Assembly: GCA_008501785.1 (NCBI GenBank)
Contig: QQUD01000167.1
Coordinates: 1-17,072 of the forward strand
Direction: 5' to 3'
Origin: Chloroflexota bacterium
GTDB lineage: Bacteria; Chloroflexota; Anaerolineae; Promineifilales; Promineifilaceae
DNA: 17,072 nt
The notes under the pieces are model-generated. The model was not told the DNA's origin. It ran no database searches and saw nothing but the letters and a program-made list of their open reading frames with translations. Numbering within the stretch: position 1 is the first letter of the stretch; each line of letters opens with the position of its first letter. Below are positions 1 through 17,072 of this stretch, piece after piece. Position numbers and translations under genes: made by a program.

Positions 1-211
1 GAATGGGCGGTTTATTGGTGGCGGCAGCGGGCGGGAAACGGCCGTTCTGACCTCTGGCAGCAAATTTGATGTTTTTTTACTTTTCAAACTGGAAAAAACT
101 TGCCTACATTTCAGGGGTTTGTGTTTGATCTTTTTCTATAGTCGTTATGCGAAGCTCTGCCCCGCACTGCTTTTCCCCTTCTTGTGGGACCTCAACGACG
201 CTTTTTCATTG

Positions 212-488: not shown

Positions 489-587
489 ATGAATATTAAA
501 ACCAGGCGTTTTTTGACCTCCTTGTTTGTTGGGTTGGGCATGATTTGGGCATTAATGGGATTATTTACAATTTCGCCTACTCAAGCG
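489..587 (+). other. Sec-type signal peptide (residues 1-33)
   Basis: A basic start MNIKTRR is followed by a hydrophobic core FLTSLFVGLGMIWALMGLFTI and a polar end SPTQA. The most likely cleavage is after A33, with T31 at -3 and A33 at -1. No lipobox cysteine is present: the first Cys is at residue 38. This directs the chain out of the cytoplasm. Confidence 0.88.
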
Positions 588-3500
588 CAAGAAATAACCT
601 GTGATACCGAGAATCTATTTACTAAATTCTTGTCCCAATGTGACACAGAAACAGGTAATTTAGAGGAAGCCCCTGAAACAGAATCGCTGTGGCTGCAAAA
701 TCTCGTTGCCGACGAAGCACCTCCCCCAGCTCAAAACCTCGATGAAGCATATCAGCGTGTTTTAGACGCTGGCGCGTATGACTTTTCATCAGTTATCCAA
801 CAGACACTGGTGCCTCGCGCCATCCCCGAGATGATTGGCGAAACAAACCACAATCTCAATATGTATTTGGATGGTGAAGTGGAACTGCCAGGAAACGGCC
901 GTTTGCGATTAAGCGTTGAAGGTGCTGGGCTAGACCCCACCCCCGTCATGCTCGTCCATGAAAATGGCTCCTCTTTCATGATGAAAGAGAATGAGCAAAT
1001 TCCTATCGAAAACCCCGTTGGATTTGCTGCGCCCACAGGTGATTATTTAAGCTATTTGGCGGCTGCCGAAAATGTGCAACCGTGTGACATCACCCAAGCC
1101 CCATTGCCAGATGCCACCACCTGCTACACCTTTGATATTAATGGCGAACACTTCGCAGAATTTACGCGCATTCAGATGCAAAAACAGATGCAGGCGAATG
1201 GCACCTTACATCCCAATTCCAATCTGGAACCCTCGCTCATGTTGTCAAATATGGTTGGCAGCGGCAAGATTTGGATTGATGCTAATGGGCTACCACTTCG
1301 GCAAAAGGTGGATCTCGACTTTACCGAGTTGAGTGATCTGTATGACGCCCGCGTCAGCATGGTCACGGATTATGAATTTGATGAAACGGCCGTTCAAACC
1401 GTAATTGCCGCACAAACACCCGTTAAGTCACTTTTGAGTTGGGATAGAACGGCGCTCAATCGTCTCGGTACAGCCGTAAATGCAGCCGTGCCCAATGCGG
1501 TTATCCTCTTATTTTTTGTGGTAAGTGTTTTACTGCTGATCGCCTTGCGCCGCCGTCGTTGGATGTATACCTTTGTTGCCGTTGCGATTATCTTGATTAT
1601 GCTCACCACGCCCATGCTGCAAGTTGTCAGCTACACACGCTTCTATACGCGTCAAGCCGCCTTTGCTGCCTCGAAAGAGTCGCTTATCGAAACATTAGCT
1701 GTTTCAGATACCGTCGATGCTGTCGAAATGGAAACCAACACAGAAATGGCCGTATCGCAGCAAGATATTGCACCTGCTGCTGTGGTACCTTACGAACCCA
1801 GCTCTTATTGTGGCTTGGGTGGAAATTCAGACCGTGATGGTGATGGCCTGGCCGACGATACAGAGCACTGCTTAGGCACTGATCCAAACAATCCGGATAG
1901 CGATGGCGACCTGATCATGGACAGTGATGAAGTGCAGGGTTTTGTTTATGGCCAAACGGTAAGCCGTACCTGGTACACCGACCCGCTAAACCCTGATTCC
2001 AACAATGATGGCCTGGATGATGGTTCTGAATGGATGACTGTTGAAGGAGGAAGTTTGGGAACGGCCGTTTCCTGGGACATTGACAAGGACGGCGTGCCCA
2101 ATGTATGGGACGAGGACGATGATGGAGACAGCGTAAGTGACCGCATAGACCTCTCCCCAGGGTCACGCACTCAATACATTTCCAATACCACCTCTATTTC
2201 CAATACAGGCGGAGTTACCACTTCCACGAGCATCACAAATCCATTTTCTTTCACCATCAATGACAGCTACGATGGCTACATTTACGTTACCCTGCAAGTG
2301 CAGCCCAGTGATCTCACATACCTTCAATATGCATCCGGTTATTTAGATTGGCCCTATGATAAAGAAGGCCACATCCAAGACCGCGATGGGTCCGTAAACG
2401 ATATTCGGATTGTACCCATGCTTGCGGTAGACATGAATAAGTGGCCAGATAGTGAACTGGCTGAAGAGTATTATGTCAATCCTATGAAGGTAGATGATGA
2501 TGGTGACAATTTCCGGGAAGTACTCATACCCTTGAATGTATTAGAAAATGGTGGCCGTGTGGAAGCGCTTTCTGCACACATGGCTTATGGCCCTGAAACA
2601 TTGAAGGATTTAGACGATGCCGGTATTCAATGGCGCAATGCCCGCATATTGTGGCTGGTCCAGGCCAACAATGATAGTGAAAATGACAACGGCGACGTGA
2701 CTACCAAATCATCTGTGGTACACACCTACACGGAACCCGCTTTTCGGATTACCGGTTGGCAAGTTACCAAGAGCGGTCAATTCCGCAGCGCGATTTTAGG
2801 AACACCAGATTTTCCTGATGATGATCGCCATCTCTTCCAATTAATGTTTGGTCTAAGCGCGTCCTTCCTCTCTTACAAAGACCCTGATCTGGATGAGATT
2901 AAAGCCCGTTTTTCTGGGGCAAACACACCTATTGAACAAAAATGGGGCATTACCACAACCGTCGCAGTTGATTTGCCCGCGTCATCTTCCGCACATTTTG
3001 ATGAAGGGCTTAAAGGCCTAGACGACCAAATCGAAACATTTCTAGCTGAGCATTATACGTGGGATACGCCGAATGCTGTGATTGTGGCTACAGAATCTGA
3101 TTTAGGTGCGTATACACAGGATTTCTTAGATGAATTTGAACCCTCTATTTCCACGATGGGCGTTGATCTAGACGATATCAGCATGGGTAAGCAGCGTACC
3201 CTTAATTTGCAAATGCGGGATCGCTGGAAGGCATTTGATGAGGGTGAGGTCGCTGAAGCCTTGTTTGATCGCCTGCCATTAGCTGTTGATGATGCCCTGG
3301 TGGAACTGCAAGATCAATATCCGGCACTGACAGCCAGCGACCTCTTTGCCTTGTCCATGTCACTTTACATGACGTGGCATGGTGGACGCTCGCGGCTATT
3401 GAACATTGACGGTTTGGCAAGCGAAATACAAAGTCGCCCTGATACAGACATCCACAAACAGCTCTTTACCGAACCTCGAGATCGCCATAATGATCCGGCA

Positions 3501-6500
3501 AACATCAACACATTGCCGGGTTATCTAGTTGAGGTGGGGCATTTTGGCAAAGTTGGTGGGGGATTCTTATTTAAAGACTCAGGTGTATACACCTGGCAAT
3601 ATTTTCAAGCCAACAAACAGACCGCTGCTATCATCGGCTTTACCCAAGCCTCAACCTATCTTGTTGAACTGACATCCAGATTTTTGCAATCAGAATTGAA
3701 AGATGCAACATCATTTGAAGGTGCAGATTGGCACAAGAAAAAGAGTGTCCAGCTTAAGGCCCGGGTAAAGCTTAAGGTTAAGACGAATTTCATCAAGGGT
3801 CGTGTATTTCAATCTGCGTATAAAGGCATCTCAAACTTGCTCGGTGTGGCGGATACCTCTGCTGGCTTAAAAAGCACTGGGAAACTCGCAAAACTATTTA
3901 CTAAAATAAAAACTTCATCCGTTGCCGTGAAACTAGCCAAAGTTACGAAGGTAATTTCAAAAATAGCGAAAAGGATAGGTGCCTTTCTGGGGGTAGGATT
4001 ATTTGTCCTTGATATTGTCATTACCCTTGTGACATTTTTTATGGAAGGCGATTACTCAAGTGAGGCGATAGGTATGCTGGTAGCGACGATAGCCGTCTCT
4101 ATTGCGCTATACCTGATCGGTTTGACACATCCTGTCGGGGCCGTTGCGGTTGCTTTAGTTGGCCTTGTTGATCTCTTCTTGTATCTTTTTGGTGTTGATT
4201 TCTCAGTTACCGGTGCGGTGGCTAAATGGTTGTATGATGCATTTAAAGGACCGGATTATTCAGCGACTGAAGTTGGAGAGTTTGATTTCAAGGATTATGA
4301 TGTCTTCCTGCGTGATCCAGAAATGGGGTTCGTTGTCGGTAATCGTTTGACAATAACATCAACCTTTGCAGGTCATGTTGAAGTTGTTCTCCGAAAAAGA
4401 TCACCAATTAACCCATCGAAAACCTATATAGCCGAAAACGGATGGATTTGTGGTAGATTTGAAAATAAAGTAGAAAATTTAACTAAATCTATCATCCAAA
4501 CTTCCTGCCCAAATACCAAAGCCGAAGTCACCACATCAGGCAATCTGATCACGTATACAAACCAAATGTCGATGACTGTCATTTTCAACGAAGGCAATGT
4601 TAACCAGGCTATTTCATTTGTTGAGACGGTTGATGCGCAAACCTTGCGCTGGAGTAAAGCTCTGAGAAGAGATTGTAGAAAAGCAATTAAGAAGCGGTAT
4701 TGTTATGAATTAGATAAAGAATCTATTGTCAGTTATCCAGATAAACTTCCTGAGGAAAATCAATGGGAACCGACGACTTTCTATGTGGATTTGCTTCCGA
4801 AAACTGTACAAGAATTATGGTTCTTTTCTGACATTATCAACCATGATCCAGATGGGGATGGAATGTCATCAAGGAATGAAATCAATGAGCTATTTGGCTC
4901 CCAAACATATGGCATTATGAGCGATGATCTTACACCTTTCGCGGTTGGCACATTAAAGTATCGATCAATTGATGTATTGTTAACGCAATGGGATAAGCAC
5001 GAAACCCATTCCACGATCACTGCTTGGTGTTCGAATAATCCTGATTATGCCTCGATGTGTAATACAAACGAAAAACCCATCTGGCTTAATTGGGACCGTG
5101 ATGGTGATGGTCTGTCTGATGGGTTTGAATTTGACAATATTGGCCTATTGGGCACAGACAACAACGATGCTGATACAGACAACGATGGTTTAAATGATGG
5201 ATTTGAATATCGTATGGGAACACGCATTGATGCGCCCGATTCTGATATGGATGGCTTGCTTGATAATGAAGAGGTGTTTTATAAAGACACAAATGGAGAT
5301 TGGCAGGGTGGATGGGATATGGTTGTAGAGAAATATGGCGCGGTGGGGCAATACGGCCGTTTCACCACCACCGTCCACATTTTCCCCAACCCCACGCTCG
5401 CTGATACAGATTTAGACGGCTTGAGCGACAAAGTCGAGCAAGAAAACGTCACCAGCCCCTATGGCTTCAATCGTGCCCCGCGAGTCACCTTAGAAGGGTC
5501 TCCCTATGCTGAAAGTCCGGCGGGGTTAAGTGCAGTTTACATCAAAGCTGGCGAAGAAATTTCATTTACAGCAACGGTAGAAGCATTTGAGCCAATTAGC
5601 GTCGCCTCTACATTAGAGCTAACTGTACCCTGGTCGCTGCTGTCCGCTGCACAATTTGACAAGATGCATGGGAACAGCGCCCCCAACAACACTGGCCAGC
5701 CCGCTTACCCGGCCTGGTCATTTGCAAAAGACCCCTTGCTTCCCGAAGAATCTTCCTACACCATCGCCACCGCACAAACGGCAAATTTATCACAGTCAAT
5801 GACCGGCACCGCCCAAATACGCCTGCCCATGAAGCCTGCTGGCTGGCTGCCGGTCGGCGTCGGTGCAGGGTCAGATAGTTTTAGCGCTACTATCTATGCA
5901 ATGGCTGAAGACCCAGATGATCATACGCTCTATGCTGGCGGCCAATTCGATAAAGCTGGCGGTCGTTCAGCCGACGGTATCGCCCGTTGGAATGGCAGTA
6001 GTTGGGGAACAGTAGGCTTTGGCATAGACGGCACTGTTTATGCCATCGTCATTGCGCCAAACGGAGATGTTTATGCAGGTGGTCATTTCTACGAGGCTGG
6101 CGGCAAAGATATAAGCTATATCGCCCGTTGGGATGGTACCCAATGGCATGCGCTTGGCAGCGGTGTGGACAGCTACGTTTATGCAATGGCGATGGATTCC
6201 AACGGTGATTTGTTTGTGGCCGGCGATTTCACCAAAGCGGGGGGGACAATCGTAAATTATGTCGCCAAGTGGGATGGCAGCAGTTGGTCTGCATTAGGCA
6301 GCGGCACAAACGAAACTGCCACAGCCATCGCTGTTGCTCAAAATGGCGACCTGATTGTGGGGGGGATGTTCACAAAAGCAGGCAATGTTTCCAGCCAGCG
6401 GATTGCGCGTTGGAATGGGTCAAGTTGGCTAGCAATGCCGGGCTTGTGGGCTGGCATGTACGAATCTGTCGGTGATATTGCCTTTGATCCTGAAAATGGT

Positions 6501-9500: not shown

Positions 9501-12500
9501 AGCAGTGCAGGTACAACGCCGTGGGCCATTGATGATGGCGGTGGTGCAACCGCGATTAGCGACACCGTCTACGTTTGGATTGGAAACGGCGGCGGTGGTT
9601 TTAGCTTCAAAGATATGTCCACAGGTAGTGGTTGGTCCACGCCTTGGGGGCCTCCCGGAAAATTAGAGCCAGACAGCGTGATGGCAGCGGGCAGCGATGG
9701 TCAGATTTACGCCATTGGTGCGCCCGATTGGAATACAATTAGTGCTCCGCCAGACCAAATTGATGGCATGGTTGTTCATCCAAACAATGAGCACATTTAT
9801 GCAGCCCCACAATTAGGAAGCAGTTTTTATATATGGGATGGCAGCAGTTGGACAACACAGGGTGGTGCGCCTCATCAAAATTACACAGCCATTGCTATTG
9901 ATCCCACAAATGGGGACGTGTATATGGGTGCGTTGGGTGGTGATGTTGTTAAATGGAATGGGAGCAATTGGACCACTATTCATACTTTTGTGGGTGGCAT
10001 CCACGATATAGTCCCAGATTCTCAGGGTGATATCTATATTTCCGGCGCTTTTGACGGTTATTTTGCCAAATGGGATGGCAGCACCATGACTATATTGGGG
10101 CAACCAGACGTTACCGGTGATGTAGAAGATATGATTATTGATCCAAATGACAATATCTACCTCGCCGGATATTTCGATTATACGTTCAATTCAGATGGCT
10201 ATTTACAAAAGTGGAGTACCAGCGGTAATGAGTGGCAATACATTAGCGATGGTGGCATCACCGATACGGTAAAAGCGTTGGCATACAATGAACGAACCAA
10301 TAAGCTGTATGCTTGTGGTGATTTCGCATCTTCCGATGTTGCTGTCTATGATGATGCTGGTAGTTGGACGTTCTTGCCCCCAATTGAAAGTGGCCCTAAT
10401 GGTTTTAACGAATGTCATGACTTAGATTATAGTGGGCAAATTTATGTGTCTGGTGAGTGGGATACCGGTGAACTCTATGATCAAGGCGGTGGCATATTTA
10501 CACACAAATTTATTTACCTTGCCCGATGGGATGATGTTGGAAACAAATGGGAGCCTCAGGGCGCAGGCGGCATTCGCGGTACGAATTATTGGGACTGGGT
10601 AGATGTAGAAGAGATTGTTGCTACCAATAAGGGGCTAATCTTTTCCGGGCAATTTGATTTCATAGGTGAAGATGAATTTAATCAAATGGCATCGGATGAT
10701 TTTGGTCAGATTCACTTCTTCCACGCCGTGTACAGTCCGACGGCAAACAGTTGGACGACGCTGCCACCCCCTCCAGCCATTGGGTCTGGTGCTAGCTACG
10801 GTGGTTCGGCTGATGGCAAAATGGCTTTAATCAGAGGTGGTGGGAGTAATACCACGTATTTCTATGACATTGCCTCGCAATCATGGGACAGCTTAGATAC
10901 GTTAGATGTGAATGTGACTGGCAGCGCGATGACGATGGGCAAAAATGAAAACCTGTATGCCATTGTCAATGGTGGTCAATTCTGCAGCAGTGGAGACGGC
11001 CGTTATTGGAGCTGTTCCGCCAATGGTGACATCGATGAAGGCACAATGGGAACCGTGTCTGATGGCGCTTCGCTGGCATACGATCCCGTGAAAGATACCT
11101 TCTATGCCTTCCCCGGTGGCAACAGCACCAACATGCTGCGCCACCGCGATGGCAGTTGGGAACTGCTCGATTCTGGAAACTTCACACCCCAACCGATACG
11201 TCCAGGTGGCGACCTCGTCTATATTCCTGGTGCTACAGAAAACAGCCTCTATGCTATTCCAGGGGGCAACAACAATGCATTTTGGCACTATCCACTGCCA
11301 GAGCCGAACAAGATCGGGTTTGAGCACAGTGCGATTGTGGCTCCTGCGACGGCGCAATGGCTCAATGTAGATGCATTCCCAGATGACTTTAATTATCGTA
11401 TGGGAGAAGGGAATATGTGGTTTGGCGGTACGGGCTGGACACCTGAGCAGCGGTATGCGCTGCCAGAAAGCGGCGCGGATCCGTTTCTGGATCAGACACG
11501 TGACCTGTATCGCATGGGCGAAGATGGATTTGCGATGGGTTATCACACCTACACCATGCCGGTGACGGCAACCACGACGGCGGGCATCCAGGATGCGATC
11601 AACAGCGGCGCGAATCGCGTGATTGTGAAGCCTGGTATTTATGAGGAATCGCTTTACCTTGTAAATGGCGTGGAGATTGTGGGTAGCAATCCTGATTGGG
11701 TGATTGTGCGGCCTCCGAATGGCAGCACATTGCCTCTTGTTCATGCAGAAGGTGTGGCTGGCACGAGCCTATCACGCATCACATTGGACGGGAAAGGCAG
11801 TGGTTTAAATGGGCTGGTGGTTACAGGGCGTGGACAGCACAACAGCTTGAGCCGCGTTTTGATTAAGGGAACGGAAACGGCCGTTCTCGTTGACGCAGCC
11901 GACAGTGATATTGAAATCGCCAACGCCACCATTGTGCAAAACAACAACGGGCTATCGGCCACCAATTGCGCATCAATTGATGTGCGCAATACGATTTTCG
12001 CTTATCAAACTGGGACCGGTCTTAGTCACGAAGGGTGTGCGGCAGTCAAATTGCACACCTATAACTTGTATTGGGCAAACAGTACAGATTTTGGCGGCAC
12101 AGCAGATGCTGGCGCAGCGGAACTGTTCTTAGACCCGAACTTTGTTGACCCATTTGATAATGATTATCGGACTTTGAACTACTCACCCGTCATTGATGCA
12201 GGCAATCCGACAGACCCGCCACCTCCGGGAGCGGGCAACCGTATTGACATTGGCTACATTGAGCAAGGTCGCGCTAACTTCTTTGTAGACGACGACTATT
12301 GTGAACTTTGTGAGAATGACGGTTTGAGCTGGGGCATCGACGCGTTTGACACGATTCAAGCGGGTTTGAATACGGCGCAGAACACCCTCACCACGCTCAG
12401 CCCCGGCATTGGCGAAGTGCCACAACTTATTGTGGGCGTGGGTCCGGGCACGTACAACGAGCAGTTGACGATTCCGAGCCATGTCATTTTGATGGGCAGC

Positions 12501-15500
12501 GGCGCGGAAGAGACCTTACTTGATTTGGGTGGTGGGGATACGGCCGTTACCTTCAACGGCGTCACCGACGCAGGCATCAACAACTTCACCATCAAAAATG
12601 CGACCACCGCTATCTCGGTGACAGGTGCCAGCAACACCATTCTTATTGACCATAACATCTTTGACAGCAATACCACTGGCATGATTGCCAGCGATAGAAG
12701 CACACCCGAATTGACTTTTAGCACCTTTGTGAACAATGGCACAGCTATCAACGCCGACGGCAATGGCACATGGGCTTCTGTCTCGAACAACATTTTCTCT
12801 GGCTCAGGTGTTGCTTTATCAGGCACAGCGAACGGACAGGTGTTTAGCAAATACAATTTGCTGAACATGTCCACCAATTATGATAATGTGTTTGCCGGTG
12901 AAGGTGACATCACTGGAAGTGACCCGCTGTTTGCCGGTGGTGCATTCCCTTACCGGCTCACGGCGAACTCGCCGGCACTCGACGCCGCATCACGACATGA
13001 ACAGGTGCCAGAAGGTGGCGGGCTGCGGGCCGACCTGGGTTACAGTGAACTGCTGGCCGCGCCTATTCTGCTTTTGCTGGGGCAAGAAGATTTGTCTACA
13101 GTGATGGGGAATTCGGGGGTAAAAAGTGTGGAAACGGCCGTTGTCGAAATCACCGACAGCAGCCAACCCGTCACCGCCACGCTCCCATCTTCATGGATAT
13201 CTGTGACGCTCGATTCTCCTGGAGCCACCTTCTCTTACTGGCAATCTGACTTTACACCTGACGCAGAAGGGTTGTACCGATTCTACAGCCGCGCTACCGA
13301 CATGGTAGACAACCAGGAAGAAGATGAAATTGATTGGTATGATGGCTCATTTGTCGCGGACAGTGTGCCGCCAACCATTACCTGGATTGAACCGCTGAAC
13401 GGTGCTTCTGTGAATGCGCCTATTGAACTGCGAGCGCAGGTATCAGATTACGCCGCCGACGATTTCAGCGTGGCGCAAAAAGATGTTTACTTTGATGTTG
13501 GTGGCACCATTTATGCGGCGACATGGGCGGCCGAACCCTGGGATGAAGATGCCCAGGAACCGCGCATTTTCCGCGCCTGGATTACGCCGACGGTTGGCAG
13601 TTACACCAACGTCACAGCTTATGCCGAAGACAAAGCCGGTAACTCAGCCTCAGACAATTCACTATCATTCGATATTGTGGGTAACGATGCAGCAGATGTG
13701 ACAGCGCCACTATTCACCGTTGATGCACCTTCCGCAGGCGCGTGGCTGACACATACCGTTGCCTTTTCTGGCACGGTGTCGGATGTAGAGAGCGGCGTTG
13801 CTGCCGTCGAAGTCAGTCTGGATGGTGGGACTTCCTGGCATCCGGCAACGGTTTCTGGCAGCGATTGGTCGTTGACCTGGGATGGCCCAGAGTACCTGCC
13901 GTTTGTCAGCTATCCAGCATGGGTGAAAGCAACAGACCGGGCTGGCAACACAAACAGCAGTCCGCTGGTCTTCAGCATTGATGAAGTACCGCCGTCTGGA
14001 TTGGATCCGGTGGCGTTTAGCGCTCCTGTAGGCACACATTTCGATGTGGAAACCTCGCTGATGATTACATGGACGGCGGCGTTGGACAGCAGCGGCATTT
14101 TGACAACGTACCTGACTGTTGATCAAATTACAGACACAATTTCTGCCGATGCGGTGACGGGGAATACGGCTTCCGCCACCCTCAACGCCAATGGCAAATG
14201 GTATGTGCATTTGGCAGCGATGGATGCTGTTGGCAATACAACGTTCTACGATTACGGTCCCTGGTATGTGGGCATCGACAATGGGTCATTTGGTTCACGC
14301 CAACAATCTATTATTGTTGATGGCTATGTCGATACCGCGAATGGTGAATGGGAGCCAGATACCGATTACCTGGACAACGATGCACGGACTGTAGGCAGTG
14401 AAGTCACATACAGCCCAACTGGCAAACAAGCATTCTATACCGCATGGGACAGCGATGATTTCTTCATGGCGTGGCGCGGTGGTTGGTGGACGTTGGATGG
14501 TGAGCTGTGGATTTACTTAAACAGCGGTGGTGGCGGCAGCAGCGCACTAATCACGCCATTGCAAAGTGCGCCCAGCGCTCAACTGCCATTTGACGCAAAT
14601 TACGCTGTACAAGTTACTTCACCGCTGACCGGTACGCTGTGGGAATACAGTGGAAGTTGGCAGCCATCTGCATTGGATTGGGAATTTGTGCAAGGCAATG
14701 AAGGAGATACAGAAGTGCGGCTGCCGTTGGTGGGTACGAGCAATATTGAAACATTGTCCTTTGGTTTGGGTGATAACGGCCGTGTTTGGGCCATCTTCCC
14801 CGCCACCAATCCACTAAACCCAGTCAATAGCGCTCCCTCCTCAGGGATGCAAATGGACAACGCACAGACCTCAGGTTGGGTGCCATACCATTGGGATGAC
14901 ATCACGGTTGTGGACAATGTGGCAGACAATCAGCCTATCGCTACCAGTCTGGCATTGACGGTGGACAGCCTGCAAGCGCCTTCGGCGAATTGGGGACCGG
15001 GCGGCACGTTGGAGTACGTGGTGCAGGTAGATAACCAGGAAAGTGAAGTGTTGACGGGTGTTGAGATTGACTTAACGGCCGTTTCATCCACCGCCATCAT
15101 CCACGACAGCATCGAAGGGGCAAGTTGCACCACCACAAACCCGTGGCAGTGTACATTGGATCCGTTGGCTCCTGGTAAAAACACAATTACCTTAACCACC
15201 CACCTCGCCAGCGACTTGGCTGATAACGCCGAAGTTACACTGACAGCGGCGTTACAAAATGTGAATGTACCGCCAGAACTGCCCTCATCAGACAGCATCA
15301 CGCATCAGCTAGACAACCAACCACCCGTTGTTACAATTTCTAACGAACCGTTTGTCACCACAGGCCCTCAAATTTTCCAAGGGACAGCAGACGACGGCGA
15401 TGGTGCTGGTGTAGCGTATGTAGAAGTACGGCCAGAATATGGCAGTTGGCAAACTGTACAGGGTACGGAATTTTGGTCTGCGGACCTGACCGTGCTGCCA

Positions 15501-17072
15501 TTCCTGAATCATGGTGAAACGTGGCAAATCGAAGTTCGAGCTGCTGATGCATTTGGTCAGGTGAGCGCCATTGAAACGATGACGTTTACGGTTGATTTGG
15601 AAAGCCCAATTCTGACCTTTACCCCGCCAGCGATGTTAGGTGGTGACTATAACCAGATGTTAGGAACGGCGCTGGATGATTTGGAAGGCAGTGAAGCGGT
15701 GCAGGTGACTGTTCAGCTTGACAGTGAGCCTTGGAAAGAAACGGCCGTTTACGCCCCAGACGAAACCGGCGAACAGCAGTTCCTGTGGATGTGGGAAATG
15801 CCTGCTGTCGATGGGGTGACGTATACCCTGCGCGTTGAGGCTGAAGATATTGTGGGCAATGTGGGCACACTGGGGACGCCGCAACAAGTTTGGGTCGATA
15901 CCGTTGCCCCGCAAATCACCGTCACCACTGTGTTAACCCAGGTGGCCATGCAGCATTATCCTGTTGGCGGTAGTGGTGTGCCGGTTCTCAGCGGTTCGAT
16001 GAGTGATGGTAGTGATATTGCTGCTGTGACGGTGAATGTAGAGCTTCCAAATGGCGAATGGTATGATGCCGATGGCAGTTGGGGTAGTGGCACCTGGCAA
16101 TTTGCGCCCGAACTGGAGCTGATAGGTGACTACCTGCTACAAGTGAAGGTGCGAGATGTGGCAGGCAACCTGACAAAGAGTGATTCGTACACGTTGACTG
16201 TGGTGGCTGCGCCAGATAGTGGACCGAATCATTTCTACACGTTGGAAGATACGCCAATTGTTTTCCAACCCTTGCTGGATGATATTGATCTGGATGGTGA
16301 TGATCTGCTCGTTGCTTCGATTTCGGTTCCCACTAGTGGGGCGGCTGCGCTGCAATCAACGGTCGATGTGGTTTATACGCCGACGTTGAATTTCAACGGC
16401 CAGGATGTGTTTACTTATGTTGCCAGCGACGGCGATTATACAGACACTGCGACGATTACGGTGACGGTAACGGCCGTTAACGACGCACCCACCATCGACG
16501 GCAGCAGCACTATCGCCATCACCATCGACGAAGATACACCAACTAGCCTCAATTTCAGCAGCGCAGATGTTGATGGAGATTCGATGAGCTGGAGCATTGG
16601 GCAGGGTGGGGGAACGGCCGTTGTCAGCAACACCTCTGGTGTGAATAATGTCAATGCCGCCATTTCCTATACGCCCGTCGCCGATGCCAATGGCGCAGAC
16701 AGCTTTACGGTGCAGGTCAACGATGGCGAATACAACGACACAGTCACCGTTAATGTGACTATCGATCCTATCAACGACGCCCCCCGCCCAATAGACGATT
16801 ATCTGCTGGTTGTGCCCAGCGATAAATGGTCGCCAATGACGCTAAATGTCCTGGCAAATGATGAGGATGTGGAGGGTGACTCGATGAATTTAACCGCCGT
16901 CGGCGATCCATCTGTTGCCAGCACTGCTTATGCTAACAGCAACCAGGTTGCCTTCACGCCAATTCTAGATGTTGGCGACACTGAGACGTTTACCTATACG
17001 GTTTCTGATGGGCAGTTGGCAGAAACGGCCGTGGTCCACATCAAGATGGTCGCTGGTGATAAGGCAGCCAGC
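489..17072 (+). CDS. Giant modular surface protein, 5,528 codons visible, 3' end beyond window
   Basis: A single uninterrupted frame starts at the ATG at 489 and is still open at 17072. The start is supported by an AGGA six bases upstream and by a classic signal peptide immediately after it. The chain is exported and built from beta-rich modules: calcium repeats, at least two kinds of beta-propeller, three beta-helix domains, many Ig-like modules, a CBM9/DOMON-like domain, a DUF11-like domain and C-terminal cadherin-like repeats. A two-helix membrane hairpin near residues 337-377 should tether it. No enzymatic motif was recognised, so a role in adhesion, cell-cell contact or binding of extracellular polymers is inferred, not shown. 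All 24 cysteines I found fall in 12 close pairs, which fits oxidative folding outside the cytoplasm. The real length is unknown because the stop codon is not in the window. No neighbouring gene is visible. Certainty about the frame is very high, about the function low. Confidence 0.97.
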   Translation, partial: MNIKTRRFLTSLFVGLGMIWALMGLFTISPTQAQEITCDTENLFTKFLSQCDTETGNLEEAPETESLWLQNLVADEAPPPAQNLDEAYQRVLDAGAYDFSSVIQQTLVPRAIPEMIGETNHNLNMYLDGEVELPGNGRLRLSVEGAGLDPTPVMLVHENGSSFMMKENEQIPIENPVGFAAPTGDYLSYLAAAENVQPCDITQAPLPDATTCYTFDINGEHFAEFTRIQMQKQMQANGTLHPNSNLEPSLMLSNMVGSGKIWIDANGLPLRQKVDLDFTELSDLYDARVSMVTDYEFDETAVQTVIAAQTPVKSLLSWDRTALNRLGTAVNAAVPNAVILLFFVVSVLLLIALRRRRWMYTFVAVAIILIMLTTPMLQVVSYTRFYTRQAAFAASKESLIETLAVSDTVDAVEMETNTEMAVSQQDIAPAAVVPYEPSSYCGLGGNSDRDGDGLADDTEHCLGTDPNNPDSDGDLIMDSDEVQGFVYGQTVSRTWYTDPLNPDSNNDGLDDGSEWMTVEGGSLGTAVSWDIDKDGVPNVWDEDDDGDSVSDRIDLSPGSRTQYISNTTSISNTGGVTTSTSITNPFSFTINDSYDGYIYVTLQVQPSDLTYLQYASGYLDWPYDKEGHIQDRDGSVNDIRIVPMLAVDMNKWPDSELAEEYYVNPMKVDDDGDNFREVLIPLNVLENGGRVEALSAHMAYGPETLKDLDDAGIQWRNARILWLVQANNDSENDNGDVTTKSSVVHTYTEPAFRITGWQVTKSGQFRSAILGTPDFPDDDRHLFQLMFGLSASFLSYKDPDLDEIKARFSGANTPIEQKWGITTTVAVDLPASSSAHFDEGLKGLDDQIETFLAEHYTWDTPNAVIVATESDLGAYTQDFLDEFEPSISTMGVDLDDISMGKQRTLNLQMRDRWKAFDEGEVAEALFDRLPLAVDDALVELQDQYPALTASDLFALSMSLYMTWHGGRSRLLNIDGLASEIQSRPDTDIHKQLFTEPRDRHNDPANINTLPGYLVEVGHFGKVGGGFLFKDSGVYTWQYFQANKQTAAIIGFTQASTYLVELTSRFLQSELKDATSFEGADWHKKKSVQLKARVKLKVKTNFIKGRVFQSAYKGISNLLGVADTSAGLKSTGKLAKLFTKIKTSSVAVKLAKVTKVISKIAKRIGAFLGVGLFVLDIVITLVTFFMEGDYSSEAIGMLVATIAVSIALYLIGLTHPVGAVAVALVGLVDLFLYLFGVDFSVTGAVAKWLYDAFKGPDYSATEVGEFDFKDYDVFLRDPEMGFVVGNRLTITSTFAGHVEVVLRKRSPINPSKTYIAENGWICGRFENKVENLTKSIIQTSCPNTKAEVTTSGNLITYTNQMSMTVIFNEGNVNQAISFVETVDAQTLRWSKALRRDCRKAIKKRYCYELDKESIVSYPDKLPEENQWEPTTFYVDLLPKTVQELWFFSDIINHDPDGDGMSSRNEINELFGSQTYGIMSDDLTPFAVGTLKYRSIDVLLTQWDKHETHSTITAWCSNNPDYASMCNTNEKPIWLNWDRDGDGLSDGFEFDNIGLLGTDNNDADTDNDGLNDGFEYRMGTRIDAPDSDMDGLLDNEEVFYKDTNGDWQGGWDMVVEKYGAVGQYGRFTTTVHIFPNPTLADTDLDGLSDKVEQENVTSPYGFNRAPRVTLEGSPYAESPAGLSAVYIKAGEEISFTATVEAFEPISVASTLELTVPWSLLSAAQFDKMHGNSAPNNTGQPAYPAWSFAKDPLLPEESSYTIATAQTANLSQSMTGTAQIRLPMKPAGWLPVGVGAGSDSFSATIYAMAEDPDDHTLYAGGQFDKAGGRSADGIARWNGSSWGTVGFGIDGTVYAIVIAPNGDVYAGGHFYEAGGKDISYIARWDGTQWHALGSGVDSYVYAMAMDSNGDLFVAGDFTKAGGTIVNYVAKWDGSSWSALGSGTNETATAIAVAQNGDLIVGGMFTKAGNVSSQRIARWNGSSWLAMPGLWAGMYESVGDIAFDPENGDIYAAGSAVDVSGQSSHSNIARWTGTAWTLLPDIASNPDSGRQYANTLAFGPDGNLYAGGWWAETTLTEDHYFARWDGTNWDTDLGDFSGYGVYSLLPDENGMYVGGTFSQVDDTTSENVAYFAIVDGQVQESEVTVVVDADSPRLGLIEPHYGQIIGGGVTDYVIGGYTREETTWVTEVEIDLPVIGSTTLTRSQSLSPWAYTWNLPADGVYNLAARTTDFVGNVSSDDNGHVMIDNTPASVTVNLSDGAVYGPPENSGVITITLDGTASDNLSGLTRVQISTDGGPWREVWTLATATVTNSTTTTFSPTFHDRMTGATWEAVWTLPNVESVQGYHSIRVRAFDEASNWPTILERTIIVDVIPPTDELLNRAYLHDFPHVTTNEAHTFYGVVNDVGNVPEPSRPTELVGDLDSVEDATIWLGLSDIAENDAGVTVDWIGDFNGDRRADLLVGLPSAANGAGEVMVVYGRSGDWPVPDAHEMLASSTTSFVGTAGAGIGAQALSAGDVNGDGIADLLIGDPNNNRVFLIFGQTRSLGRDILLNSPHGGARVVLLPPDGEQIGQYIGAAGDVNGDGYADMLIGATGSTDKVYLLLGESHPWFENVKVDTNAAVQVVNIEAATLTGVGDLDGDFNDEFVLGAGNNLYLFEGKASYAPKAGLALMLSNATHTFASSDATPTAAALGDVNEDNLGDFIYSNGGSQQLVFGDGTLDGSWTTQTFNYGSGFLAGPGDVDNDGRADILIGGGGNAYLVLGSDLGSAESTISGVAMAASAPNAAGADLNSDGSSDLLLVPAAPDGAANGAASTTLADLPPAWVPRVAEQNLDTFVGATTFPDYPGADAYVNDDGVCYGRSPCYTTIQDAIDNSITNDLIIIQPGVYSSFTVSNKNYLTIQGMNADAVFIDGAGGSYAAQIINSLDVQLKHMTLRNADYGVRLEDAGIYGHLTMSNRTSLDHLLIYDVNTHDIYMSRSSTVSVTHSTLVANSNHVGIFGDVDFRVTTGWSSAGTTPWAIDDGGGATAISDTVYVWIGNGGGGFSFKDMSTGSGWSTPWGPPGKLEPDSVMAAGSDGQIYAIGAPDWNTISAPPDQIDGMVVHPNNEHIYAAPQLGSSFYIWDGSSWTTQGGAPHQNYTAIAIDPTNGDVYMGALGGDVVKWNGSNWTTIHTFVGGIHDIVPDSQGDIYISGAFDGYFAKWDGSTMTILGQPDVTGDVEDMIIDPNDNIYLAGYFDYTFNSDGYLQKWSTSGNEWQYISDGGITDTVKALAYNERTNKLYACGDFASSDVAVYDDAGSWTFLPPIESGPNGFNECHDLDYSGQIYVSGEWDTGELYDQGGGIFTHKFIYLARWDDVGNKWEPQGAGGIRGTNYWDWVDVEEIVATNKGLIFSGQFDFIGEDEFNQMASDDFGQIHFFHAVYSPTANSWTTLPPPPAIGSGASYGGSADGKMALIRGGGSNTTYFYDIASQSWDSLDTLDVNVTGSAMTMGKNENLYAIVNGGQFCSSGDGRYWSCSANGDIDEGTMGTVSDGASLAYDPVKDTFYAFPGGNSTNMLRHRDGSWELLDSGNFTPQPIRPGGDLVYIPGATENSLYAIPGGNNNAFWHYPLPEPNKIGFEHSAIVAPATAQWLNVDAFPDDFNYRMGEGNMWFGGTGWTPEQRYALPESGADPFLDQTRDLYRMGEDGFAMGYHTYTMPVTATTTAGIQDAINSGANRVIVKPGIYEESLYLVNGVEIVGSNPDWVIVRPPNGSTLPLVHAEGVAGTSLSRITLDGKGSGLNGLVVTGRGQHNSLSRVLIKGTETAVLVDAADSDIEIANATIVQNNNGLSATNCASIDVRNTIFAYQTGTGLSHEGCAAVKLHTYNLYWANSTDFGGTADAGAAELFLDPNFVDPFDNDYRTLNYSPVIDAGNPTDPPPPGAGNRIDIGYIEQGRANFFVDDDYCELCENDGLSWGIDAFDTIQAGLNTAQNTLTTLSPGIGEVPQLIVGVGPGTYNEQLTIPSHVILMGSGAEETLLDLGGGDTAVTFNGVTDAGINNFTIKNATTAISVTGASNTILIDHNIFDSNTTGMIASDRSTPELTFSTFVNNGTAINADGNGTWASVSNNIFSGSGVALSGTANGQVFSKYNLLNMSTNYDNVFAGEGDITGSDPLFAGGAFPYRLTANSPALDAASRHEQVPEGGGLRADLGYSELLAAPILLLLGQEDLSTVMGNSGVKSVETAVVEITDSSQPVTATLPSSWISVTLDSPGATFSYWQSDFTPDAEGLYRFYSRATDMVDNQEEDEIDWYDGSFVADSVPPTITWIEPLNGASVNAPIELRAQVSDYAADDFSVAQKDVYFDVGGTIYAATWAAEPWDEDAQEPRIFRAWITPTVGSYTNVTAYAEDKAGNSASDNSLSFDIVGNDAADVTAPLFTVDAPSAGAWLTHTVAFSGTVSDVESGVAAVEVSLDGGTSWHPATVSGSDWSLTWDGPEYLPFVSYPAWVKATDRAGNTNSSPLVFSIDEVPPSGLDPVAFSAPVGTHFDVETSLMITWTAALDSSGILTTYLTVDQITDTISADAVTGNTASATLNANGKWYVHLAAMDAVGNTTFYDYGPWYVGIDNGSFGSRQQSIIVDGYVDTANGEWEPDTDYLDNDARTVGSEVTYSPTGKQAFYTAWDSDDFFMAWRGGWWTLDGELWIYLNSGGGGSSALITPLQSAPSAQLPFDANYAVQVTSPLTGTLWEYSGSWQPSALDWEFVQGNEGDTEVRLPLVGTSNIETLSFGLGDNGRVWAIFPATNPLNPVNSAPSSGMQMDNAQTSGWVPYHWDDITVVDNVADNQPIATSLALTVDSLQAPSANWGPGGTLEYVVQVDNQESEVLTGVEIDLTAVSSTAIIHDSIEGASCTTTNPWQCTLDPLAPGKNTITLTTHLASDLADNAEVTLTAALQNVNVPPELPSSDSITHQLDNQPPVVTISNEPFVTTGPQIFQGTADDGDGAGVAYVEVRPEYGSWQTVQGTEFWSADLTVLPFLNHGETWQIEVRAADAFGQVSAIETMTFTVDLESPILTFTPPAMLGGDYNQMLGTALDDLEGSEAVQVTVQLDSEPWKETAVYAPDETGEQQFLWMWEMPAVDGVTYTLRVEAEDIVGNVGTLGTPQQVWVDTVAPQITVTTVLTQVAMQHYPVGGSGVPVLSGSMSDGSDIAAVTVNVELPNGEWYDADGSWGSGTWQFAPELELIGDYLLQVKVRDVAGNLTKSDSYTLTVVAAPDSGPNHFYTLEDTPIVFQPLLDDIDLDGDDLLVASISVPTSGAAALQSTVDVVYTPTLNFNGQDVFTYVASDGDYTDTATITVTVTAVNDAPTIDGSSTIAITIDEDTPTSLNFSSADVDGDSMSWSIGQGGGTAVVSNTSGVNNVNAAISYTPVADANGADSFTVQVNDGEYNDTVTVNVTIDPINDAPRPIDDYLLVVPSDKWSPMTLNVLANDEDVEGDSMNLTAVGDPSVASTAYANSNQVAFTPILDVGDTETFTYTVSDGQLAETAVVHIKMVAGDKAAS
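588..1490 (+). other. N-terminal extracytoplasmic domain, possibly LolA/LppX-like
   Basis: Residues 34 to about 330 form an extracytoplasmic domain between the signal peptide and the membrane hairpin. It begins with an acidic, proline-containing linker. It then has alternating beta-like segments such as MYLDGEVELPGNGRLRLSVE and GKIWIDANGLPLRQKVDLDF. The phrase WIDANGLPLRQ resembles strands of LolA/LppX-like lipid-carrier folds in actinobacterial and Chloroflexi lipoproteins, but that is a resemblance by eye only. Cys pairs 38/51 and 199/212 could form disulfides. Confidence 0.4.
1497..1619 (+). other. Two-helix membrane hairpin with RRRR turn (residues 337-377)
   Basis: A hydrophobic helix at 337-353 (VILLFFVVSVLLLIAL) is followed by RRRR at 354-357 and a second hydrophobic helix at 359-377. 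By the positive-inside rule the arginine turn is cytoplasmic. This leaves both the N-terminal domain and the long C-terminal chain outside. The protein would thus be anchored near its N-terminus by an internal hairpin and not by a C-terminal anchor, although a further anchor beyond the window is possible. Confidence 0.8.
1830..2153 (+). repeat. Thrombospondin type-3-like calcium repeats, cluster 1 (residues 448-555)
   Basis: Aspartate loops of the DxDxDG type occur at D448-G453, D470-D474 (PDSDGD), D503-G508 (PDSNNDG), D532-G535 (DKDG) and D541-D547 (DEDDDGD). Each is followed by a D/E four to seven residues later, as in LADDTE, MDSDE and LDDGSE. Linkers such as GTDPNNPDSDGD are typical of the family. 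These loops bind calcium and stiffen stalks in secreted bacterial proteins. The Cys pair 441/461 brackets the first loop. Confidence 0.85.
2154..3734 (+). other. Unrecognised region (residues 556-1082)
   Basis: I do not recognise this part. The first portion (about 560-780) is beta-like and threonine/serine-rich, with stretches such as GYIYVTLQVQPSD and a further acidic loop VDDDGDN. The later portion (about 830-1080) looks more helical, with DDQIETFLAEHY, GEVAEALFDRLPLAVDDAL and SDLFALSMSLYMTWHGG. No cysteines and no catalytic signature were seen. It carries no copy of the iterated palindrome. Confidence 0.5.
3735..4196 (+). other. Lysine-rich segment followed by three hydrophobic segments (residues 1083-1236)
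   Basis: Residues 1083-1162 contain 19 Lys and 3 Arg but one Asp and no Glu, with alternating patterns such as VQLKARVKLKVK and KLAKVTKVISKIAKR that would form cationic amphipathic strands or helices. Three hydrophobic segments follow: 1166-1184, 1194-1212 and 1216-1236, the first two separated by the acidic MEGDYSSEA. This is unlike the acidic, beta-rich remainder of the chain. It could be a second membrane-embedded part or a membrane-inserting module. An odd number of crossings would place the rest of the protein in the cytoplasm, so at least one segment is probably re-entrant or peripheral. Confidence 0.75.
4197..4838 (+). other. Unrecognised, AT-richer linker domain (residues 1237-1450)
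   Basis: This part contains beta-like stretches (RLTITSTFAGHVEVVLRK, NLITYTNQMSMTVIFNE) and two Cys pairs, 1321/1340 and 1396/1405. The second pair sits in the basic segment RRDCRKAIKKRYCYE. The base composition is AT-richer by eye, and the arginine codons AGA and AGG are used several times (for example at 4677), whereas they are rare in the rest of the gene. No family was recognised. Confidence 0.45.
4845..5438 (+). repeat. Thrombospondin type-3-like calcium repeats, cluster 2 (residues 1453-1650)
   Basis: Loops DPDGDG (D1453), DRDGDG (D1536), DTDNDG (from D1562), DSDMDG (D1584) and DTDLDG (D1639) each precede the acidic partner pattern seen in LSDGFE, LNDGFE, LLDNEE and LSDKVE. Five loops are clear. 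The Cys pair 1514/1524 lies between loops one and two. The cluster mirrors the one at 1830-2153 and flanks the membrane-like block from the other side. Calcium binding is a family property. Confidence 0.85.
5460..5870 (+). other. Probable beta-sandwich domain (residues about 1658-1794)
   Basis: The segment alternates short polar and hydrophobic strands, for example AGEEISFTATVEA and SVASTLELTVPW, and ends with TGTAQIRLPMKPAGWLP. It sits between the second calcium cluster and the first propeller. It looks like an Ig-like or DUF11-like sandwich, but the family is not clear. There are no Cys residues. Confidence 0.35.
5889..6884 (+). repeat. Seven-repeat beta-propeller, WDGSSW type (residues 1801-2132)
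   Basis: Seven tandem repeats start at residues 1801, 1848, 1895, 1942, 1992, 2049 and 2094. The first three intervals are exactly 47 residues. The consensus is a strand with xVYAxAxxxNGDxYAGGxFxxAGG followed by xIARWDGSSWxxLGSG. Copies seen include DVYAGGHFYEAGG, DLFVAGDFTKAGG and the WD/N-G-S-S-W motif at the end of each repeat. Seven repeats fit one seven-bladed propeller. The repeats degrade towards the C-terminal end: repeat 7 lacks the WDGSSW motif. The likely role is binding of a ligand or partner outside the cell. Confidence 0.88.
6918..7808 (+). other. Three Ig-like modules (residues 2144-2440)
   Basis: Module boundaries are marked by D-x-x-x-P phrases: DADSPRLGLIEP at D2144, DNTPASVTVNL at D2241 and DVIPPTDELL at D2365. 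The first two modules end with the typical phrase for these domains, as in YNLAARTTDFVGNVS and HSIRVRAFDEASNW. These are spacer-like beta-sandwiches common in bacterial surface proteins. They connect the first propeller to the FG-GAP propeller. Confidence 0.75.
7809..8880 (+). repeat. Seven FG-GAP repeats, integrin-type propeller (residues about 2441-2797)
   Basis: Seven calcium-loop cores start at residues 2445 (DFNGDRRAD), 2511 (DVNGDGIAD), 2574 (DVNGDGYAD), 2631 (DLDGDFNDE), 2688 (DVNEDNLGD), 2735 (DVDNDGRAD) and 2783 (DLNSDGSSD). Most are followed by a strand like LLIGDP or MLIGAT and then a hydrophobic strand ending in FGQ, LGE or LGS. Seven copies match the seven blades of the alpha-integrin-like propeller. 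Spacing shrinks from 66 to 47 residues along the array. Copies 4 and 5 have the least regular loops. Confidence 0.92.
9018..9476 (+). other. Parallel beta-helix domain 1, apparently truncated by an insertion (residues about 2844-2996)
   Basis: The entry phrase YTTIQDAIDNSITNDLIIIQ followed by PGVYSSF is the hallmark of pectin-lyase-fold beta-helices of the DUF1565 type. Successive coils include YLTIQGMNADAVFIDG, AQIINSLDVQLKHMTLRNA and STVSVTHSTLVANSNHVGIF. The Cys pair 2852/2858 sits at the start. Unlike helices 2 and 3, it stops after the STLVANSN coil with no DPxF...SPAxDA cap. A cap-like sequence appears only after the second propeller region (11469-11552). Confidence 0.75.
9477..11370 (+). 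repeat. Second propeller region with WDGSSW-like repeats (residues about 2997-3627)
   Basis: About eight or more degenerate repeats carry a strand such as GDVYMGALGG or GDIYISGAFDG followed by a tryptophan motif: YIWDGSSW, VKWNGSNW, AKWDGS, QKWSTSGNEW, VYDDAGSW, ARWDDVGNKW, VYSPTANSW, FYDIASQSW and RHRDGSW. They are related to the first propeller: an 18-base identity, TGGGATGGCAGCAGTTGG, is shared between 6270-6287 and 9834-9851. The later repeats look Kelch-like. The length would allow one large or two propellers. Cys pairs 3276/3309 and 3499/3509 occur inside. Confidence 0.7.
11469..11552 (+). other. Degenerate beta-helix cap (residues about 3661-3688)
   Basis: SGADPFLDQTRDLYRMGEDG followed by FAMGYHTY aligns by eye with the ends of the two later helices: DPNFVDPFDNDYRTLNYSPV in helix 2 and DPLFAGGAFPYRLTANSPAL in helix 3. 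It retains D-P-x-F, D-x-Y-R and an alanine two residues after the expected SP position. I read it as the displaced C-terminal cap of beta-helix 1. Confidence 0.45.
11550..12266 (+). other. Parallel beta-helix domain 2 (residues 3688-3926)
   Basis: It enters with AGIQDAINSGANRVIVKPGI then YEESLYL, and continues through coils such as VEIVGSNPDWVIVRPP, LSRITLDGKGSGLNGLVVTG and IEIANATIVQNNNGL. It ends in the standard cap NYSPVIDAGNP followed by RIDIGYIEQ. Fold: right-handed parallel beta-helix, which often binds or acts on polysaccharide. I see no catalytic residues I could defend. Cys 3827/3850 form a pair. A palindrome copy at 11876 encodes ETAV within a coil. Confidence 0.8.
12270..13046 (+). 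other. Parallel beta-helix domain 3 (residues 3928-4186)
   Basis: It begins with ANFFVDDDYCELCEND and the entry phrase FDTIQAGLNTAQ, then QLIVGVGPGTYNEQLTIPSH. Coils include FNGVTDAGINNFTIKN, NTILIDHNIFDSNTTGMIAS and WASVSNNIFSGSGVALSG. The cap is DPLFAGGAFPYRLTANSPAL, with RADLGYSE at the end. The CELC motif (Cys 3938/3941) is the tightest cysteine pair of the protein. The domain directly follows helix 2, so the two probably arose by duplication. Confidence 0.8.
13062..14300 (+). other. Four Ig-like modules (residues about 4192-4604)
   Basis: Boundaries are visible at SVPPTITWIEP (near residue 4292), DVTAPLFTVDAP (D4403) and DEVPPSGLDPV (D4498), with one module before them (SSWISVTLDSPGATFSYW). 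Modules end in phrases like TAYAEDKAGNSAS, WVKATDRAGNTNSS and HLAAMDAVGNTTF, the usual final strand of this family. They act as spacers between the beta-helices and the CBM9-like domain. Confidence 0.75.
14310..14800 (+). other. CBM9/DOMON-like beta-sandwich (residues about 4608-4771)
   Basis: The opening IIVDGYVDTANGEWEPDTDY and the next part QAFYTAWDSDDFFMAWRGGW follow the pattern D-G-x-x-D...W...Y-x-A-W-D-x-D-x-x-x-x-A of family 9 carbohydrate-binding modules and DOMON-like domains. A strand LDGELWIYLNSGGGGS and the closing TLSFGLGDNGRVWAIFPATN fit the same fold. Carbohydrate binding is possible but inferred. This is the only such module in the window and is rich in tryptophan. Confidence 0.5.
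14943..15280 (+). other. DUF11-like beta-sandwich (residues about 4819-4931)
   Basis: WGPGGTLEYVVQVDNQESEV then LTGVEIDLTAV, later CTLDPLAPGKNTITLTTHL and AEVTLTAALQN, matches the DUF11 layout: a polar-ended strand with V-x-N, a middle D/I-S phrase, then L-x-x-G, and a final V-T/A strand. The Cys pair 4880/4889 brackets the TTTNPWQ loop. A palindrome copy at 15074 encodes LTAV in the middle strand. Confidence 0.6.
15312..16208 (+). other. Three Ig-like modules (residues 4942-5240)
   Basis: Boundaries are DNQPPVVTISNEP (D4942), DLESPILTFTPP (D5036) and DTVAPQITVTTVL (D5137). The modules end in VRAADAFGQVS, VEAEDIVGNVG and VKVRDVAGNLT, matching the Ig-like modules upstream. The spacing is about 95 to 105 residues, regular for this family. 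Confidence 0.8.
16215..17072 (+). repeat. Cadherin-like tandem repeats, open at the window end (residues 5243-5528)
   Basis: Three repeats of about 90-100 residues are visible. The first has TLEDTPIVFQPLLDDIDLDG, then VVYTPTLNFNGQDVFTYVAS, and ends TITVTVTAVNDAP. The second ends VTIDPINDAP. The third runs off the end, with NVLANDEDVEGDSMNLTAVG and ETFTYTVSDGQLAETAVV. The phrases D-x-D-G-D, Y-T-P-x-x-x-F-x-G-x-D-x-F-T-Y and N-D-A-P are typical of bacterial cadherin-like/Ig tandem domains involved in calcium-dependent adhesion. More repeats or an anchor probably follow. Confidence 0.85.

Follow-up and report, generated by a model that had tools for sequence, protein, structure and literature searches.

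The DNA uptake sequences of Neisseriaceae and Pasteurellaceae are short words, found at about 1 per kb and with lineage dialects, that thin out to about one per imported fragment. A repair bias can also raise the frequency of a methyltransferase site, as in Dcm with Vsr very-short-patch repair. For the iterated palindrome HIP1, function and upkeep have, to our knowledge, been open for decades. Elhai 2015 (PMC4390886) gives HIP1 as GCGATCGC and describes an alternate cyanobacterial HIP, TCGATCGA, with a changed outer base pair; there, G-methylC-directed mismatch repair is proposed for HIP1, and the model requires GC next to the core. Selection on HIP1 is treated by Xu et al. 2018, as represented in citing passages in PMC6604393. 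Of the published ideas known to us, the Elhai model is the nearest to the mechanism considered here. Our searches of open-access papers turned up no earlier description of ACGGCCGT or CGGCCG as an iterated word in Chloroflexota, and a count in PMC12772301 gave no CGGCCG.

The present word, ACGGCCGT, resembles HIP1 in being a palindromic octamer around a hexamer core, at 0.4-2.1 per kb of genome, and likewise in being conserved, the most over-represented octamer in larger samples, and accompanied by deviants at its outer positions. As with the alternate HIPs, relatives swap the outer pair (A..T, T..A and G..C here). Unlike HIP1 proper, which is cyanobacterial, it belongs to another phylum and has the core CGGCCG; unlike the HIP1 model, half of the present carriers do without a C5 methyltransferase and there is no limit at one per kb. 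Bare-hexamer genomes, an excess of the word-coding tripeptides and word-dense phage contigs are features of the present system that HIP1 may share.

The window, by which we mean the whole 17,072-nt stretch of DNA that was analyzed, contains 17 copies of the octamer ACGGCCGT, 10 copies of the 10-mer AACGGCCGTT and 19 CGGCCG hexamers, 17 of which sit within the octamer; these counts, first given by a sequence-only reading of the window, proved exact on recount. Markov models predict 0.23 (order 1), 0.30 (order 2) or 0.59 (order 3) octamers and 0.018-0.07 10-mers (orders 1-3), which places the observed octamers at a 29-fold (order 3) to 74-fold (order 1) excess. We also applied a stricter null in which the protein and its codon usage are held fixed, and under these terms the single large open reading frame holds 16 octamers versus 1.2 expected (Poisson P for at least 16 = 3.5e-13) and nine 10-mers versus 0.13. 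The copies in this frame use two reading frames, 10 coding for TAV and 6 for [YHND]GR, and the word encodes 10 of the 12 TAV and 6 of the 7 [YHND]GR tripeptides of the giant protein. One octamer, at 38, lies upstream of the frame at 489-17072, as the earlier reading had it. The features are as follows.

489..17072, plus strand: gene that carries 16 of the 17 copies, an open frame of 5528 residues running off the window end
37..46, unstranded: AACGGCCGTT copy 1, first full 10-mer, upstream of the open frame
894..903, unstranded: AACGGCCGTT copy 2, codes NGR
1385..1394, unstranded: AACGGCCGTT copy 3, TAV
2060..2069, unstranded: AACGGCCGTT copy 4, TAV
5353..5360, unstranded: ACGGCCGT copy 5, YGR; the G006 and G002 orthologs have the word too
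7903..7910, unstranded: ACGGCCGT copy 6, YGR; the G006 and G002 orthologs have the word too
9046..9053, unstranded: ACGGCCGT copy 7, YGR
10996..11003, unstranded: ACGGCCGT copy 8, DGR
11876..11885, unstranded: AACGGCCGTT copy 9, TAV
12540..12547, unstranded: ACGGCCGT copy 10, TAV; the G006 ortholog has the word too
13133..13142, unstranded: AACGGCCGTT copy 11, TAV
14776..14783, unstranded: ACGGCCGT copy 12, NGR
15074..15083, unstranded: AACGGCCGTT copy 13, TAV
15740..15749, unstranded: AACGGCCGTT copy 14, TAV
16469..16478, unstranded: AACGGCCGTT copy 15, TAV
16613..16622, unstranded: AACGGCCGTT copy 16, TAV; the G006 ortholog has the octamer too
17025..17032, unstranded: ACGGCCGT copy 17, last octamer, TAV, its 10-base context ending in G and thus not a full 10-mer; word also in the G006 ortholog
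8773..8778, unstranded: CGGCCG outside the octamer, context TCGGCCGA
13528..13533, unstranded: CGGCCG outside the octamer, context GCGGCCGA

The giant window protein (>5,500 residues) looks secreted and bears Ig-like domains; Rax2-like propeller, FG-GAP, beta-helix and Big_13 domains were found in the first 5000 residues, which were scanned. Its first 704 residues have relatives at 46-50% identity in genomes G006, G017 and G002, and because these are three members with a dense word, the window most likely comes from the carrier order or close to it. Matches to the N-terminal region are numerous in G426 (29) and G445 (24). In aligned orthologs, 5 of 15 window words are kept as word in G006 and 2 of 9 in G002; at this distance, most window words have changed together with the protein. 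That 16 of the 17 window copies lie in one gene might point to a protein or codon-usage artefact of a giant repetitive gene, or to an artefact of assembly. We consider such an origin next to impossible: it is refuted by the 28 separate genomes described below, by intergenic enrichment, by the codon null, and by dialect-specific words in the same gene, which carries 21 ACGGCCGT and 0 TCGGCCGA in G006, and 26 TCGGCCGA and 0 ACGGCCGT in G433.

A scan of a genome contig collection for two full 10-mers 11-12 bases apart matched at least 120 stretches, which form two sets by the density of further copies. Among the stretches listed, 84 are in records titled Chloroflexi, Chloroflexota or Anaerolineae-type (0.24-3.75 further copies/kb) and 36 come from other groups (0-0.12 further copies/kb); a narrow protein search of the collection gave no match. 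Whole-genome counts covered 24 of the at least 26 Chloroflexota genomes in the scan list, leaving out records WYBM and WFSA, and all 24 contain 2,887-15,176 copies of ACGGCCGT, versus 40-403 for the reversed control word. All 24 fall in one Chloroflexota order, for which 56 genomes were examined, and four further dense members of it (G424, G425, G432 and G440) contain 6,514-13,708 copies. Among 400 evenly drawn Chloroflexota genomes, G004 has 12,611 copies and the other 399 have at most 646. ACGGCCGT is an iterated palindromic HIP-type word, genome-wide in 28 of the 56 examined members of this order. With genome sizes rounded, its density is about 990-2100/Mb in 27 of the 28 carriers, within the roughly 500-2500 copies per million bases of the HIP class; the exception is G014 at 437/Mb. 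ACGGCCGT tops the octamer list of a 220 kb sample (872 both-strand counts versus 30.7) and ranks first in a 200 kb sample and in most shorter carrier samples, with a local repeat outranking it in samples of G006, G007, G020 and G024. The word is thus neither confined to one gene nor at background frequency in whole-genome counts of related genomes, which hold thousands of copies, far over the control word. The proposal of the sequence-only reading, a HIP1-like genomic word and not a protein repeat, is upheld by the counts in 28 genomes, the use of three frames, the intergenic copies and the conservation between relatives.

To gauge the strength of the pressure, we used genes called with a simple custom caller, not standard annotation. 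Across 843,847 bases from 25 genomes, the word accounts for 659 of 684 TAV and 388 of 452 [YHND]GR tripeptides. The log odds of the word over neutral coding in the three frames are 5.77, 5.47 and 5.39 in G011, 4.78, 5.59 and 5.26 in G015, and 4.98, 4.62 and 4.63 in a pool of 23 genomes. None of eight control palindromes exceeds 0.92 in G011, and GCGATCGC is used at 0 of the 109 sites of the G011 sample that would permit it. In the genomes of their own dialect, TCGGCCGA and GCGGCCGC have log odds of 4.1-5.1 and 3.9-4.4, respectively, and bare CGGCCG has 1.9-4.5 in hexamer genomes versus 1.4-1.6 in G011. Because the log odds are similar in all codon frames, the pressure is on DNA. It reaches protein sequence, where it is seen as an excess of word-coding tripeptides: TAV occurs 223 times in G011 versus 31.5 expected (its five permutations, 21-55), Ser-Ala-[Asp/Glu] 43 times versus 9.5 in TCGGCCGA genomes, and Ala-Ala-Ala 18 times versus 4.2 in G441, the last also being 1.3-1.7-fold over expectation elsewhere. 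Intergenic DNA has a lower raw word density than genic DNA, and relative to an order-2 model it holds 48 words versus 0.67 in G011 (72-fold) and 25 versus 0.37 in G015 (68-fold). The word is a strong attractor, in that the sites a protein allows mostly are the word, in any codon frame.

Core one-offs are far scarcer than the word itself, a pattern that avoidance could produce if near-miss sequences were punished and only the perfect word survived. Once word codons are set aside, the ratio of observed to expected is 0.2-1.4 for core one-offs and 2.3-3.2 for outer ones, which leaves near-miss avoidance unsupported; it also cannot produce extra TAV or intergenic words, and we rate it as extremely unlikely.

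The earlier reading had also called for a comparison of copies between close strains, and between relatives word sites turn out to be kept far above matched octamers. This comparison used one 20 kb region of G011 and five relatives. In four of these, at about 84% identity, 29/33, 33/38, 45/51 and 21/22 word sites are identical (128/144 overall), compared with 28-32% of octamers of equal G+C; in G424, at 76% identity, 20 of 30 word sites and 12% of matched octamers are identical. Wobble-base identity is 94.0% inside the word (n=317) and 66.7% outside it (n=16,400). Within the G011 group, conservation falls off at the eighth base, which bears on the unit of the word: the palindrome stands as described, and the octamer is retained in place of the 10-mer that had been put forward as the full unit. 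The 10-mer makes up 5-6% of octamers in G007, G011, G018 and G023, and 82-84% in G001 and G013.

The spacing of copies speaks to what kind of process maintains them. Sorted by distance to the nearest copy, from <30 bp to >1.6 kb, the word share of TAV is 28/29, 67/69, 91/100, 152/158, 171/174, 114/115, 30/31 and 6/8, and that of [YHND]GR in the same classes is 17/20, 20/26, 49/56, 91/112, 111/121, 83/91, 13/18 and 4/8. Since a nearby copy brings no relaxation, the word acts site by site, and the lack of a density limit argues against roles that need about 1 site per kb. A density-limited role of the segregation type, one of the functions floated earlier, is accordingly a poor fit, as saturation is independent of the nearest copy. 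Were the word a DNA uptake sequence that natural transformation had spread, with a dialect for each lineage, it would resemble the known cases in its density of about 1 per kb and in having dialects. Unlike the uptake sequences of Neisseriaceae and Pasteurellaceae, however, the present word is palindromic, saturation holds at each site with no thinning of copies by a neighbor, and core near-matches are not enriched; phage contigs bear the word too, and we judge this explanation very unlikely.

Spacing in G011 is near exponential (CV 1.1), and that in G015 is wider (CV 1.45 and 2.96) because of gaps. In pooled samples, neighboring copies show no helical phasing in their distances, and word pairs less than about 80 bp apart are scarcer, at about 1.1-2.0 versus 2.3-3.2 per bp farther out. 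The pooled samples contain six word-free stretches >5 kb, with G+C below the surroundings in five and above in one (G005), so a stretch of DNA can do without the word, and copies seem to build up slowly. The longest, 25.8 kb on G015 contig C90 (about 103165-128944; G+C 0.47 versus 0.59 around it), is probably a recent arrival or island.

The deeper unit is the core CGGCCG, with outer bases that depend on lineage. In samples of 120 kb each (220 kb for G011), ACGGCCGT makes up 436 of 639 CGGCCG in G011, TCGGCCGA makes up 183 of 231 in G433 and 158 of 233 in G426, and GCGGCCGC makes up 192 of 219 in G441, so that sister lineages have the outer pairs A..T, T..A and G..C. One-base deviants in G011 number 106 at position 1 (with 8) and 16-19 at each core position. 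In G427, G445, G446, G447 and G449, CGGCCG is present at 2.5-4.2/kb and a strong outer preference is absent; the assignment of G448 to this hexamer class rests on a 3 kb sample. Bare-hexamer genomes still hold 657-2,982 ACGGCCGT each, and G445, which leans to A..T (15 of 90 CGGCCG) and still holds octamers, is for these reasons an intermediate case. A milder CGGCCG excess is seen in high-G+C members (G392, 132 versus 86.7; G453, 64 versus 30.4; three pooled, 71 versus 24.2), and G428 has no CGGCCG excess (25 versus 26.2 expected). In G430, TGCCGGCA, which had been chosen as a control word, is a different iterated palindrome with another core (3,665 copies in 4.0 Mb, and 14 of ACGGCCGT); the RecA of this genome groups with those of ACGGCCGT genomes with moderate support (82/79).

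The classical HIP model, in which a C5 or beta-class N4-cytosine methyltransferase acts on CGGCCG or GGCC and G-methylC-directed mismatch repair follows, would account for a palindrome around a hexamer core, for alternate words that differ in their outer bases and for deviants mostly at positions 1 and 8, and C5 or N4/N6 enzymes do occur in many of the genomes. We nonetheless find it quite unlikely: the C5 family PF00145 is absent from 14 of the 28 ACGGCCGT genomes, which rules out a C5 methyltransferase as universal driver, and in 6 of the 28 carriers no PF01555 match is as strong as 1e-10; in five of these six, the weak matches include pieces of the enzyme of about 660 residues described below. 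A need for GC beside the core also does not predict outer A/T bases, and there is no saturation at 1 per kb. Among the beta-class N4/N6 matches listed (E to about 1e-27), no orthogroup is common to all carriers. One C5 group is common to G427, G446, G447 and G392, and looks Dcm-like, as it is also present in G392, which has no detected word and in which Vsr adjoins the C5 gene. A Dcm/Vsr-like process differs from the present one in that no more than 8 of the order's 56 genomes have Vsr and that all one-off kinds are involved here, not just C to T.

Inspection of weak PF01555 matches in eight genomes drew our attention to a protein of about 660 residues in G011, G002, G008, G021 and G424; fragments of it occur in G005 and G014. 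Its motif I, ILDPMMGGGTT, precedes TDPPY with about 390 residues between; the motifs are invariant in 5/5 proteins, and the PF01555 scores are 40.8-57.8 bits versus a cut-off of 26.7. The protein is like the DUF1156 methyltransferases (NF042963; PADLOC DUF1156_MTase, PglXI) in its partial match (E 1e-14 to 4e-23), glycine-rich motif I and DPPY, and unlike them in its length of about 660 residues versus 919-960; the five proteins score at most 76 bits with NF042963 against a cut-off of 1000. No defence partner was identified in the neighborhoods examined. A database search with the enzyme returned at least 1,617 proteins at E <= 0.001 among 7,998 candidates, of which the best 120 have names such as hypothetical protein, DNA methyltransferase or putative DNA methylase, the named organisms being Chloroflexota/Anaerolineae. 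The predicted structure has a pLDDT of 86, with tRNA methyltransferases as the nearest solved folds. From its sequence, we infer a DNA substrate and regard the protein as a putative DNA methyltransferase; this DUF1156-like enzyme is our best candidate for the reader of the word, and a candidate for the solitary methyltransferase that the sequence-only reading had suggested.

A profile of the five proteins finds the enzyme in 26/28 A-dialect, 2/2 T-dialect and 1/1 G-dialect genomes, that is, in 29 of 31 octamer genomes (it is missing from carriers G019 and G440), in 0/6 bare-hexamer genomes and not in G430. It is also found in 14 of 18 order genomes without a detected word. Given the two carriers that lack it and the 14 genomes that have it but no detected word, the enzyme does not suffice for the word and may not even be needed. 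Its association with the octamer class has a Fisher P of 0.0013 (octamer genomes versus the rest, kinship ignored). The class boundary is blurred, as G445 (bare-hexamer) holds 2,982 ACGGCCGT and G014 (octamer) 2,887; moving G445 to the octamer class gives 29/32 and P 0.009, again ignoring kinship. In the RecA tree, G427 is the neighbor of G426 (100/96), and the G445-G449 rows cluster apart from them (84/87), a placement suggestive of the enzyme and the outer preference having gone missing together twice. The T-dialect enzymes have long branches, and some positions that are invariant in the A group are different in them. As a sign of a specificity change between dialects, no region of the enzyme stands out in an alignment whose T rows include wrong-frame residues of G433, in which the gene is split over two frames.

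The gene downstream of the enzyme was identified in 11 of the 20 neighborhoods fetched and encodes the NurA nuclease in 6 of the 11 (G426, G441, G004, G001 and G432 by Pfam; G433 by alignment); it is not NurA in G011, G424, G002, G015 and G008. A HerA helicase lies two to four genes past NurA in G426, G433 and G004. In the loci L454, L455 and L461, the gene order is methyltransferase, NurA, one to three small genes, and HerA; one of the small genes encodes about 205-218 residues and has no match in Pfam, and the cluster is repair-like. As a separate observation, two near-full-length RecA genes, unusual for bacteria, are present among the matches listed in 35 of 56 order members (e.g., G001, G004, G015, G024, G440 and G441), with and without the word, and the duplication has no evident link to it.

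The pair scan also returned 21 viral stretches, many of them dense; five hold only their pair (<=0.35/kb). Phage genes include a portal and a head protease in L009, a head protease in L021 and a tape measure in L017, and L002 has partition, anti-repressor, lytic and FtsK-like genes. In four phage contigs, the word share is 9/12, 15/15, 15/17 and 13/13 for TAV, and 6/11, 4/5, 6/9 and 14/15 for [YHND]GR. Either phage DNA is also subject to whatever drives the word, or the phages need it.

Our preferred reading, held tentatively and at somewhat less than an even chance, is an independent HIP-type system most likely kept by word-favoring mismatch repair guided by an orphan methyltransferase. The attractor would be a bias in DNA repair toward the word and not a requirement for some fixed count of copies. 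Any strand bearing the word would be marked by an orphan methyltransferase, and mismatch repair would use the marked strand as template, such that mutations into the word would be kept and mutations out of it undone, with the same bias working in host and resident phage DNA. If about 99% of in-word mismatches were settled for the word, log odds of about 5 would result by our own estimate, near the values seen in several lineages that differ in their words. The enzyme of about 660 residues would set the octamer and would not account for the bare hexamer. Word-favoring mismatch repair fits because the process is local, frame-blind, active on phage DNA and directed at one exact palindrome with a lineage-variable outer pair.

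Additive selection of similar strength would lead to the same equilibrium and fits saturation and conservation equally well. Here, each copy would be a site for a very abundant DNA-binding protein (nucleoid, topology or repair), adding a small and equal benefit with a scaled strength of about 4-6, in keeping with the strong conservation of each site, the similar strength in three frames, and the enrichment in coding and non-coding DNA. Against it stand the lack of any diminishing return even with a copy within 30 bp, the like log odds in lineages with different words, the absence of helical phasing in pair distances, and the excess of word-coding tripeptides in proteins; none of these points is decisive. 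We rank selection second because it needs an equal additive value per copy, even for neighbors, and similar strength across lineages, and we see it as a serious possibility, if a doubtful one.

Word-favoring repair could also be taken further, to a recognition site that drives itself. A conserved orphan methyltransferase together with mismatch or HerA-NurA-type repair would convert DNA, one copy after another and in resident phages as well as the chromosome, to its own 8-bp site, to the point of raising TAV seven-fold in G011. A change of the enzyme would give a new dialect and its loss the 6-bp core, and cyanobacteria, with HIP1, would present another instance of this general process. We place this version on the unlikely side.

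As a second iterated-palindrome system, in another phylum, the word makes HIP models testable by comparison inside one order, which includes octamer genomes with any of three outer pairs, bare-hexamer genomes, one genome with a new core and others in which no word was detected. Such comparison separates the core from the outer bases, finds a C5 methyltransferase not required in half of the carriers, reveals a per-site process that density does not limit, and points to a single enzyme with a measurable site. The DNA-level pressure on proteins matters when codon usage or amino-acid conservation is read in these genomes. The word may further serve as a signature that ties phages and unbinned contigs to hosts, and the word-dense phage contigs L009, L017, L021 and L002 are cases in which it could help to assign them.

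Outside the carriers, several Chloroflexota of the evenly drawn set are nearly without ACGGCCGT, with 0 copies versus 643 of the control word in G074, 3 versus 490 in G054 and 3 versus 373 in G063, a near-absence that looks like avoidance.
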